Shown piece after piece: positions 20,765-26,200 of a DNA stretch of 64,000 bases; position 1 is the first letter of the stretch; the number at the start of each line of letters is the position of its first letter. The notes beneath the pieces are model-generated. The model did no database searches and had not been told where the DNA came from. It worked only from the letters and a program-made list of their open reading frames with translations. Position numbers and translations under genes: made by a program. The DNA is from Cladochytrium replicatum (Eukaryota; Chytridiomycota; Chytridiomycetes; Cladochytriales; Cladochytriaceae): NCBI GenBank assembly GCA_025526935.1, contig JAHLKD010000074.1:1-64000 (forward strand), read 5' to 3'.

Positions 20765-23700
20765 ATGAAGCGTTTCTGGCTATCATCACTCGGCTCGCTG
20801 GCCTCCCATTTCGCACTCCTGTGGATCCTGTCAGCACTTCTTCCATCAAATGTGTCCGCTGTCTTCATCAAAAAATATTTCATCGACCTCCCTACAGCAT
20901 CTGATGTCTCAGCTCCATCCGCCTACAACCGAAACGAAGCGTCTTTCAGCACCAGCAATGTTGGGGACTCAAACTACGAGTTCCACTGGAGGGTCAATGA
21001 CACCAGGTTATATGTCTGGATGAAAATGCGGGTTGACCCGGCATCGGGAAAAACCATCGGAGTGAATAGCTCGTGGATGGGGATAGCGTTCGGTGCGACA
21101 ATGCTCAAGTCGCAATTCATCATCGCACATCTCGATGCGACACCAACTGTAAGGATTTGACATCGGTTAACTTACCGCCTAGGTGACCTAACACTTTGCT
21201 TCAAATCAGGGTGTTCCATTCTCGAATTTCCATGAACACACTTCCGTTCTAGGTGGCGTCTACGCTTCCCCCGAGAAGAAGCAGGAAGTGGTTGATTCCT
21301 GGGTCATCCGTCCTGTGAGCAGCACTTACAACGGCAAGAACTGGACAGCCGAGTTCTCCCGAACACTCACCCCCCGCGATTCCCTCCACATCGACCTCTC
21401 AACAACCGGCCAAACCGACATGCTCTTTGCCTTTTATCCCGGTTACCCGATCTCCTCAACCGATTTCGTCTACCACGGTGCAAACACTGCAACTTACACC
21501 TCACACGGCTACCTACTCGCATCCCTCGACGGCTCCCTCCGACCGGTATCCGTCGGAATCCCAGACTCGACCTTCCGCTCCGCACACGGCATCATCATGA
21601 TGACCCTCTGGCTCTTCTGGTTCCCCGCCGGCGTCGTCATCGCGCGCTACCTCCGCTCGTTCCCAGGCTGGAACATCATCCACATCATCTGGCAACTCGC
21701 CGGCATCTTTGCCTTCATCGTTGCCGCCTGCCTCGCAATCTTCACAGTCGACTTTGGAAACCCAAAGAAACTCGTCAACATGCCGCACTATTACCTTGGC
21801 CTCACGATCCTTGGCCTTGTCGTCATCATGGTGATCCTGGGCAGCATCGCAAGGAGTAACCTGACAACCGCCGAACGGGGCTACGCAACAGCACTGTTTA
21901 TACGCTTGGCGCACAAGGGTCTCGGATGGTTGCTGGTTCTCGCCGCATTTGTACAGATGTATCTCGGCATCAACGCGCTGCACCCGTGCTGGACCCAACC
22001 GGACGGGTGTCCTGCGGGCAGAGAAGACGGGATCTATCGCTGGGTCCTGTACGTCGGCTTCGCACTTTTGTTGGTGCTCGGGTTCATCATGGCGGAAATC
22101 ACGATGGCGGTGGTGTTCAAAGGGGGGCTGGCGGGGTACTTGTTTGAGAGGTCGCAGTATCGGAAAGGGCTGAGTCGGGTGAGCGAGGATGTGGGGAAGG
22201 CGAATCGGAAGGAGAAGGGGGATGGGTCAGCCGCGCTTATGGCCAAGCATGCATCGCAGGACCTTCGGAGCGAGAAGGAGAGGGGTCTGCAGAAGAGGGA
22301 GTTCCTTGAAGCGAAGCTTGCGAAGGAGGAAGGGTTGAGGAGCTTTACGTGGCAGTCTTTGGACGATAGCGTGAAACAAGGGTGAGCAAATTGTGCAATT
22401 CCTTAGTTGAATTCAATTCAACTCGCTCATTTTCCGACTGCTTAGGAAAGTGTATGTCGTTGGAAATGGAAAGTACGTCTATGATGCAACATCGTGGATT
22501 TCCAGCCATCCCGGTGGAACAGGTAATGAATGTGGTCGACGTCCGATTTACTAACAACGCTGACAATTGACCTTTCACCAGTGATCCTCCATTCTGTATC
22601 CGGAACCGACATTACCAACGATTTCTTCTACAGGTATACTTACATTTCCTCTCCATCGGACGTGTTGGGACTCATGATCATCCCATTTTCTGTGCAGCAC
22701 ATTCTTCGATGCAACAGAGATGCAACTCCCGCCATCGATCTACCCATCTGCTCGACGTGGCAACCCCCGCCAGAACCCTCTACCCGCTCAAGGCGAGAAT
22801 TTTCCTCCGTCCGAAGGCGAACTCGCACGAACAGCCGATCTCGATCCTGCTGCGTACCCGATGGTTACGCCGTCCGATTGGAGCGTTTTATCGCGGGCTC
22901 GAAGGACGCACGTTCACAGCAACGCTGCAATTCGAAGGCTCGCGTCGCTTCGCGTGGGAGAGCTCAAGGTTGATAGTGAGGCCGTTCGGAGGGCGATCGG
23001 AAACAGACCACTCAGCTCGCGACCCGATGCCGGTAAAGAGTATTCTCACACTCATTCTTGTTCACAGCTGACAGCTTGCTCTCCTTCAGTCCATCCATTT
23101 GATCCGTTCGAGTTCCGAAGATACGCGCTCACCTCCACAGCAACCCTCGTACCGCCTCAAAACAAGGAAAACAACCGCTTGGGCGGCATGGTCGTCCGCC
23201 TCCGTTTCTGCCTCTTATACCCCAACGACACCCGCGTCAACGAGCCCGCGACCTTCCTCCCCGGCGACACCATGCAGATCCAGATCCGGCAAACGGGCAA
23301 CCGCGCCAGCAGCATGTTCGGCGTCAGCGATTCCGGACCCAAAGTCGTCGACTTTACAACACGGTACTATACCGCCATCAGTGGGTGTCCGATTGCTTTC
23401 GAGATCATGGTCAGGGTGCCGGAAAAGGGTGGGGCGATGGCGAACTTGTTGGCGAAGCAGGTGCCGGGACAGAGGCAATATAAGATCCGGGGACCGTTTG
23501 GGATCAATTTCCTTGCGATAGCGGGGAGCGTGCCGAGACCCGTGGGATCTGTGCATCCGCCGATGTGGACGACGTTTGTGTCGAGAGGTAGCGGTTTGAC
23601 GCCGTTCTTGCAGTTGCTGCATTATTTGTTCCTTCCTGAACATGCTAGGACGAGAGTGAGCAAAAGAAATGTCTTGCGGAAAGTGGAATGCGCAAGCTGA

Positions 23701-25030
23701 ATTTGGGTTGCCACAGGTTCTTCAAGCATTTACGGTGACGGAGAGAGAAGAGCTTCCCCTACAAGTTGGTGATCTGGTTGTTCCGCGTGCCCAGAGCATG
23801 GATGGATGGTGCTTTGCTGAGAGTGGTATGTAGATGTACCTCTCCTATGTCCACTTCTTAATAAGCTAACTATCGCTTCCAATAGTGTCAAGTGGGGCCA
23901 CTGGGTACGTGCCACTTTCGTTCCTAGCACCACGGTTTGCCAACTCTCGTGGCGCTGGAGAGCACAAGTTAGTCTTGCTTCATTACACGGATTCGCCAGA
24001 GACGCTATGCGGTCTCACCGAGCTCACCGGCGCCGCTCTTGCATATCCTGGCCGCGTCGAATACCACATAGTTTTCACTAAAAGCACGCAGTCACTAGAC
24101 TCGATTCTTGTCGAGCGTGACCGTCGTCGTCAGCGAAACCTTCCCAACGGCGATGCAGATCTTATCTGCGGTATTGGCACCGAGCAGAACCTTTCCCCAA
24201 CTGACCGATTGAAACATCAGTTCTTCTACTTGGACTGCACGCATTTGTACGATCGTACCTCGCTCGACGGCGGTCGTGTCCGCAGCATCCTAATGAAATG
24301 GGCAGCATCGGGTAGATCATCCGGCTTTGCTGATTCGAAGGTGGCGGTTGTGTGCGGCCCGCCCGCGTTCCAGGACCTGATGATTGAAACTTTGGTGAAC
24401 TCGTGCAGTTACGGCATGAGCGATGTACACGCCTTGGCAGCATCGGCGTCCGCATACGACGACGAGTTGCTCCGTGTCGGACAGATTACTACCGCTTCAC
24501 CGCCCCAGTCACCGCAATCTGCGTCAGATTCCGATGTAGCTTCATCCGTTGCGACGTTCAGGCCCCGACCCGCATCGCATCAACCTCCAGCACGGTACAC
24601 CCAGCCTCCAGAAGAACCCTCGCGCCGACCGTTATCGTACCAGCCGCAACCAACCTACCTCGCTCCACCATCGCTCGCACCGCCAAACATGCAGATGCAG
24701 CAGTTGCCCCACCCGGGAGTCATGGGCTACGCTGTTGTACCCGTCACTTCAGCCCCCATGCAGTACGGACAGCAATATCCGGCCCCGCAGGTGTACCTCC
24801 AGCCTACACCGATGCAGCAGTACGGCTCGCTGCCGCCGGTGCCGACGCAGCAGTACGCACCGCTTCCGCCAATTCCAACGGCTTCTTACTTACCAGTGAC
24901 AAATGATCCGGGCCTTCGGACGGACTTGAATCTCCCTGGGCAGCCAATGCAACCGAAAGGAACTTTCCGCCCGCCGCAGCGCTTTTCGGTGCCTGTTGCC
25001 AACAGGGGACAGCCGAGCGGCACTAATTGA
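20765..25030 (+). CDS. DOMON-cytochrome b561-cytochrome b5-FAD/NAD reductase with embedded SH3-like domain
   Basis: Eight exons: 20765-21148, 21210-22381, 22446-22522, 22582-22633, 22698-23032, 23090-23655, 23717-23825, 23886-25030. They close in frame into 1,279 residues. Order: signal peptide (1-32); DOMON-like domain (about 35-225); cytochrome b561-type membrane domain (about 250-440; HGIIMM, HIIWQLAG, MPHYYLGL, AHKGLGW); cytochrome b5-like segment (about 520-562, SSHPGGT); and a reductase (from about 674) with a flavin motif (RYYTAIS), a nucleotide-binding GSGLTPF, and VAVVCGPPAF near 1056. An SH3-like stretch of about 52 residues (863-914: REELPLQVGDLVV, DGWCFAE, GYVPLSFL) lies between GSGLTPF and the rest of the NAD lobe. 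The second b5 heme His appears replaced by Thr. The tail (from about 1090) is Pro/Gln-rich. The likely role is transmembrane electron transfer from NAD(P)H to an external acceptor such as ferric iron or ascorbate radical. Confidence 0.88.
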
Positions 25031-25216
25031 ATGTGTAGTAAATTAACTCCACGGTTATTTGTGTTTTATGACTCTATGTGCTTCATAGCTCTTCATTTAC
25101 GACTGTGCTCTGCACTTCATTATCTTTTTAAGTATAGTTATTACAAGCTAATTGAAAAACATATCATATCAGATCCTGGCCTCTCCGTCACACCGGGAAC
25201 GATGAAACAATGACCG

Positions 25217-26200
25217 ATGAATCCAAAGCTTCCCTACGAAATTATCGATGAGATATTGTTGGTCCTCGGAATGAGGGCAGGCGAGCTATCGCTTGCAAAC
25301 AAACTCGCCCATATCTTGAAGAGGAGTACAGTGGAGATGAAGCTGGCCCGACTGTTCTGCAGTTTGGACGAAGCAAGCGAAAGAGGATACGTGGAGGTAC
25401 TCGACCACCACATCCGAACAATGCGCTGTCCAACGAGGTTAACAACTGGATGCACCGCAACGTACACCGACGATGCAATGGATTCGGCGAGTCGCTACGG
25501 ATACGTCCAAGTTCTTGAATGGTGGAAGTCGAGTGGACTGACATTGAAGTACCAAAACGCAATAGACTTGGCAAGCACGTACGGACACGTAGATGTACTC
25601 GGATGGTGGAAACAAAGCGGTCTCCGAATGGAGTACACCTCGGATGCAGTCAATAGCTGCAGCAGGGCTGGCCATATTGACGTACTTTGTTGGTGGATAT
25701 CGAGTGGGTTGCCTCTCAAATTCAGCACTTATGCAATGGATACGGCGGGAACTGTCGACGTGCTGGAATGGTGGAAGAGTAGCGGGGTTCAGTTGGAGTG
25801 GAGTACATGGTCGATGGATTACCCAAGCCTAACTGGGCGGATCGACATTCTCGAGTGGTGGAAACGCAGCGGGTTGGACGTAAAGTATTCGGAGTTTTCA
25901 ATGGACTGGGCAAGCGAGTTTGGATTCGTGGACGTTCTAGCGTGGTGGAAAGAGAGCGGGCTGCCGCTAAAATGGTCACAACAAGCAATGGACTGTGCAA
26001 CCACCAGAGGGAACGTGGAGATTTTGCAATGGTGGAAATCAAGCGGGTTGGAGTTGAAGTGGAGTCGAAAGTCGATCATCTGGAGGACATGGCAGACTCA
26101 TCCACATGTTGCAGAGTGGTGGACATCAAGTGGTTTGCTCACCAGTCCATCCCAAAGAGCAGCAGCTGGAATATTTCGTATGATCTACCACACAACATAG
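25217..26200 (+). CDS. F-box-like protein with WWK ankyrin-type repeats
   Basis: A single-exon frame of 327 residues. The N-terminus (LPYEIIDEILLVL) looks like an F-box. From about residue 70 a unit of roughly 29-33 residues repeats about eight times. Its form is MD-x-AS-x-xG-x-VDVLEWWKSSGL followed by about six residues ending in a hydrophobic-K-[FYW] pattern. The unit matches the helix-turn-helix spacing of ankyrin repeats but with a conserved WW in place of the usual second-helix core. Family knowledge suggests a substrate adaptor or protein-binding scaffold; the substrate is unknown. The start is the ATG at 25217. A decayed relative lies 1.4 kb downstream on the same strand. Confidence 0.8.
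   Translation: MNPKLPYEIIDEILLVLGMRAGELSLANKLAHILKRSTVEMKLARLFCSLDEASERGYVEVLDHHIRTMRCPTRLTTGCTATYTDDAMDSASRYGYVQVLEWWKSSGLTLKYQNAIDLASTYGHVDVLGWWKQSGLRMEYTSDAVNSCSRAGHIDVLCWWISSGLPLKFSTYAMDTAGTVDVLEWWKSSGVQLEWSTWSMDYPSLTGRIDILEWWKRSGLDVKYSEFSMDWASEFGFVDVLAWWKESGLPLKWSQQAMDCATTRGNVEILQWWKSSGLELKWSRKSIIWRTWQTHPHVAEWWTSSGLLTSPSQRAAAGIFRMIYHTT

Follow-up and report, generated by a model that had tools for sequence, protein, structure and literature searches.

The window analysed here, positions 1 to 64,000 of the forward strand of contig JAHLKD010000074.1 of the chytrid Cladochytrium replicatum (GenBank assembly GCA_025526935.1), contains a gene predicted to encode a membrane reductase of 1279 amino acids with an SH3 domain nested inside its nucleotide-binding lobe. 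The gene occupies 20765..25030 on the plus strand, as do all features described below within these limits. Its splicing was predicted from sequence alone: GT..AG introns separate eight exons (20765-21148, 21210-22381, 22446-22522, 22582-22633, 22698-23032, 23090-23655, 23717-23825 and 23886-25030), which join into a single open frame that paralogues match over much of its length. Pfam recognized DOMON, Cytochrom_B561, Cyt-b5 and SH3_9 in this order. The SH3_9 match covered residues 863-912 (model positions 1-48 of 49) at an E value of 1.7e-8 and 34.6 bits, compared with a cut-off of 30, and a search of the insert against PDB sequences returned 55 distinct sequences at E <= 0.01, the best being the SH3 domain of p47phox (1.5e-7). 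Exon 7 (23717..23825) encodes the first two thirds of the domain (residues 863-898), and the start of exon 8 (23886..23935) encodes the remainder up to residue 915. Between them lies intron 7 (23826..23885; 60 bases, phase 1), which interrupts the SH3 domain of the copies on contigs C145 and C76 as well. The original prediction had located the domain at 23717-23930; its start was correct, but the span as given contains the 60-base intron, so that the domain reads 23717-23825 plus 23886-23935. The prediction that the insert begins at a phase-0 intron was borne out, as intron 6 (23656..23716) is in phase 0 and residue 863 is the first to be encoded after it. Skipping of exon 7 (109 nucleotides) in silico shifted the frame and led to a stop 13 codons past HARTR.

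The sequence on both sides of the insert is that of a reductase. Cytochrome b5 reductase-type members of the ferredoxin-NADP+ reductase (FNR) family are recognized by the motifs RxYT..S, GxGxxP and CGP, and the window protein contains RYYTAIS, GSGLTP and CGPP. The flavin adenine dinucleotide (FAD)-binding subdomain and the beginning of the nicotinamide adenine dinucleotide (NAD) lobe (approximately residues 674-839; 23090..23586) are followed by the nucleotide motif GSGLTP (residues 840-845; 23587..23604), which appears as GSGxxP in paralogues. Beyond the SH3 domain, the lobe resumes with its second strand, HKLVLLHY (23963..23986), and continues to the CGPP motif (24353..24364); those paralogues that were readable here had CGP, or CGG in L020 and L023. 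The family profile matched the Physarum b5 reductase 2eix, and the FAD barrel and NAD lobe fold of the family agreed with the b5 reductases 2eix, 7rom and 9v6a. Pfam FAD and NAD profiles stayed under cut-off in the window protein, whose FAD exon alone gave no Pfam match; in paralogues, FAD_binding_6 (L017, 1.1e-8) and NAD_binding_1 (L015) exceeded it. When the insert was excised, a test carried out on five proteins, the NAD_binding_1 match extended into the HKLVLLHY strand. In the structural model of paralogue L017, a strand (197-203) and a helix (204-218) precede the insert, whose four strands of at least three residues (223-227, 246-252, 257-262 and 267-272) lie between residues 223 and 272, and the next lobe strand follows at 298-305. 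In this model the Rossmann lobe thus does not run on through the insert, and the reductase fold is left intact around it. A complete SH3 barrel has five strands; a paralogue SH3 folded alone was predicted with three, at a mean confidence (predicted local distance difference test, pLDDT) of 66.8. The matches listed by Foldseek for the insert were SH3 chains or FUT8, with a best E value of only 0.011, and the JIP1/IB1 SH3 and FUT8 were among the top ones. In a viral structure library, no reductase match was found among the 50 matches listed. The Pfam, PDB, excision and model results together confirmed the nested SH3 domain that had been predicted.

The whole genome of the organism (50.5 megabases, 198 contigs) was searched for relatives. 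The SH3-NAD piece gave 15 matches and the reductase piece 20, which reduced to 16 loci plus one fragment (C19:293795) that was left out, since its match is confined to the end of the NAD lobe and contains a stop. The family comprises at least 16 loci, as the genome search scores best candidates only. All 16 loci examined carry the SH3 domain at the same position, and the nested domain of the window gene is therefore real and more than a chance resemblance; its presence across the family is likewise shown at the level of sequence. The 16 loci fall into about eight lineages with many close pairs in the tree, and so their number does not equal that of independent events. The Pfam scan, which covered 10 of the 15 paralogues, matched each of these to an SH3 model at E <= 2.5e-4, with two (L011 and L012) reaching a cut-off. 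A His three residues ahead of the DGW motif in the SH3 n-Src loop is shared by 15 of the 16 domains, and the window copy has Gln. The frame of L014 diverges from its relatives downstream of SH3, which a frame shift, an overlooked intron or decay of the copy could explain; this locus entered the analysis only as far as its match extends beyond SH3. Ratios of nonsynonymous to synonymous divergence (dN/dS) for SH3 were 0.04-0.09 in eight of ten pairs, four of the ten being nonindependent comparisons among the four C37/C32 copies; L021/L022 gave 0.21, and the window gene versus L009 was not computable because dS was saturated. Family gene pairs were found on different contigs (C145/C76, C37/C32, C80/C135 and C67/C22) with dS of ∼0.4-1.6 in the pieces compared, which suggests a duplicated or hybrid genome.

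An SH3 insert as a feature of all reductases in this genome was rejected on the basis of compact, nearly complete matches to PF00175 and PF08030. Of 17 PF00175 matches, 11 span 90 or more of the 109 positions; the stretches of frame that they occupy are 98-125 residues long and hence leave no space for an SH3 domain, although four of the 11 hold stops and may span introns. Of 17 PF08030 matches, six span 141 or more of the 156 positions in stretches of 135-145 residues. SH3_9 itself matched 118 times in the genome, with clusters on contigs C82 and C130 and many matches in frames of ∼400-550 amino acids. No relatives were confirmed in prokaryotic and viral contig collections, which were queried with one paralogue protein and 10 pattern stretches each.

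The N-terminal half of the window protein is predicted to include a membrane part. In the hydropathy profile, a signal-like stretch stands at the N terminus; it is followed by a putative DOMON domain (residues 68-202; 20966..21431, one intron inside), which Pfam matched at E 1.2e-4 and 22.7 bits, under the cut-off of 32.7, and by a b561-like membrane part (approximately residues 251-430; 21576..22115; Cytochrom_B561 12.1 bits, under the cut-off of 23) with five hydrophobic helices between residues 255 and 430. In L009, L010, L017 and L018, His is conserved at the positions of His 254, 286, 321 and 363 of this part; His 286 is replaced by Lys in L015 and L016, several loci are only partly covered, and L020-L023 have no sound match there. 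When the complete window protein was scanned with Pfam at E <= 1, the ferric reductase membrane domain of the NOX/ferric reductase superfamily was not among the matches. Since the helix number is odd and DOMON would lie outside, the C-terminal reductase is expected in the cytosol. The cytochrome b5-like domain that follows (residues 508-560; 22347..22628, introns inside) matched Cyt-b5 over cut-off (E 6.5e-9, 36.1 bits). Here (22446-22720) HPGG is kept, and Phe stands where the second heme His would be expected, which we take to be 24 residues after HPGG; His is likewise missing from the position in paralogues whose frame stays open here (such as L011, L013-L016, L020 and L023). The b5-like domain may therefore not bind heme in the usual way. 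The protein ends in a Pro-rich tail (residues 1086-1279; 24446..25027; 21% Pro). The window gene adjoins an open frame of 328 amino acids (25214-26200) with ankyrin-like repeats (Pfam Ank_4, 3.9e-11) and a repeated VLEWWKSSGL-like pattern.

The distribution of introns and the divergence of the domains bear on how the insert arose. SH3 distances tracked those of the remaining NAD lobe (r = 0.93 over 16 loci, 0 of 5000 permutations), also when eight representatives were used (r = 0.65, 14 of 5000 permutations). With the L012 SH3 as the query, the top eight of 56 matches were family members, and SH3 domains outside the 16 loci appeared from 1.2e-7 on. The simplest reading of these sequence comparisons is one insertion before the family split. 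The same search also yielded two points that weigh against it: the C93, C76 and C145 copies ranked far below ∼30 of the SH3 domains outside the 16 loci, and the window copy and L020-L023 were absent among the matches listed. We attribute these low scores to introns, which split all of the copies concerned. Introns lie both at the start of and inside SH3 in three loci and elsewhere inside it in five, and eight loci have none in or at the domain. The phase-0 intron at the SH3 start is common to the window gene and its two close relatives on C145 and C76, which form one branch of the tree (support 100/99), and was not seen in the other 13 loci; deep forks of this tree are weak, and the intron comparison was made without an outgroup. 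Exon shuffling, which the original prediction had read from the phase-0 boundary, was rejected as unsupported by these positions, since none of the 16 loci encodes the SH3 domain as an exon of its own, and in the window gene it spans two exons.

What the SH3 domain does was approached through its peptide groove, whose positions (the ALYDY aromatic, Trp, Pro and the last Tyr) are those that we presume from other SH3 domains. Trp and Pro are present in 16/16 loci and the first aromatic in 14/16. The last Tyr is replaced by Phe in the window subfamily only (3/16) and by an aliphatic residue in 13/16. Only in the window subfamily is the NAD lobe followed by a long Pro-rich tail, of 197, 343 and 336 residues from AAS onward; other members end 33-41 residues past CGP or CGG (L014 was not readable). 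The coincidence of an aromatic last groove position and a long tail in the same subfamily suggests, from the sequences, that the domain could bind the tail. PxxP counts in the three tails (7, 7 and 5) weigh against such binding, as shuffled tails gave means of 8.3, 7.7 and 8.2; anchored motifs numbered one in the window tail, none in that of L009 and one in that of L010. Self-binding of the tail via PxxP thus received no support from motif counts, and because these were no higher than in shuffles, docking to a Pro-rich partner was favored, with dimerization as the main rival.

In the explanation that we consider best and hold to be probable, though well short of certain, the family consists of membrane reductases that export electrons and use the inserted SH3 domain as a docking site. 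Cytosolic NAD(P)H would reduce FAD in the b5-reductase-type unit, and electrons would move through or by the b5-like domain, and then via the b561 hemes, to the outside DOMON domain, where an acceptor such as ferric iron might be reduced. The SH3 domain, inserted into the NAD-lobe loop between helix A and strand 2, most simply once before the family diversified, would be a built-in dock tying the reductase to a Pro-rich partner, possibly its own tail in the window subfamily, and could thereby localize or switch the enzyme. Hydride transfer would be affected indirectly, if at all.

Alternatively, the domain could be a dimerization or packing module rather than a peptide binder, and join the two cytosolic halves of a b561-type dimer. 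The loss of the third groove aromatic in 13/16 loci fits this possibility, as does the presence among the top structural matches of FUT8, which we take to be an enzyme with its own SH3 domain, and of the JIP1/IB1 SH3, a "dimerization domain" by its entry titles; the b561 protein Dcytb is called a homodimer in the abstract of PMC6123691. We nevertheless regard a pairing role as unlikely. That ligand binding to SH3 gates hydride transfer by closing or opening the NAD lobe appears distinctly improbable. Nesting in the catalytic lobe, instead of appendage to it, would speak for gating, but in the general Rossmann topology the loop that leads from helix A into strand 2 should be on the face away from the nucleotide, and the insertion loop would accordingly face away from the cleft. 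A passive insertion, tolerated at first and retained since the fold now needs it, would be consistent with a site in a loop between two core elements whose core still matches b5 reductases, and with the L009/L010 pair, in which dN/dS of SH3 (0.064) is roughly double that of its flanks (0.027 and 0.029). In other close pairs, however, SH3 and its flanks are about equally constrained, and the groove Trp and Pro are invariant, so that mere tolerance is hardly probable.

If the docking role is true, a whole gene family would couple extracellular electron export to cytosolic SH3 signaling in one chain. The family would then be a compact equivalent of the NOX/p47phox system; in animals, NOX2 depends on p47phox and p67phox as separate subunits. 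The 16 loci are also a conserved natural example of a catalytic Rossmann-type lobe that houses another domain, and comparing them would allow direct tests of what such an insertion does to catalysis. To our knowledge, NADH-cytochrome b5 reductases differ from the window family in having neither an SH3 domain in the lobe nor a b561 fusion, and the SH3 domains of p47phox, vinexin and sorbin, and JIP1 are adaptor-protein domains that are not nested in an enzyme lobe. The family resembles the former (2eix, 7rom and 9v6a) in its FAD barrel and NAD lobe fold, and its insert resembles the latter in SH3 sequence and predicted fold. None of the papers listed by the literature searches (few of them subscription papers), as far as titles and abstract starts show, combines SH3 with a DOMON-b561 reductase. 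CYBDOM proteins, such as Arabidopsis CRR (PMC10784552) and HYP1 (PMC10784544), have a signal peptide, a DOMON domain and a five-helix b561 part with four His, to which the window protein has putative counterparts, and DOMON also occurs fused to FAD/NAD-binding oxidoreductases (PMC10784552). Unlike the ascorbate-dependent CRR, described there as DOMON and b561 only, the window protein continues with a b5-like domain, an FAD/NAD reductase and SH3. The arrangement was rightly predicted to be unusual, but it is not unprecedented: PMC3591440, the sole earlier report of SH3 in such a lobe found in the same literature, describes two NOX orthologues of Naegleria gruberi in which SH3 lies inside the NADPH-binding domain at the C terminus, and proposes an unknown partner rich in Pro. 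Compared at the level of the lobe, the two systems agree in that a membrane FAD/NAD(P)H reductase has SH3 within its nucleotide lobe. The Naegleria proteins belong to the ferric reductase/NOX superfamily, whereas here the membrane part consists of DOMON and a b561-like unit, accompanied by a b5-like domain. It is conceivable, if doubtful, that SH3 insertion into the nucleotide lobe is recurrent and occurred independently in the DOMON-b561-b5 reductase family and in Naegleria NOX, in each giving single-chain control of electron export by cytosolic Pro-rich partners.
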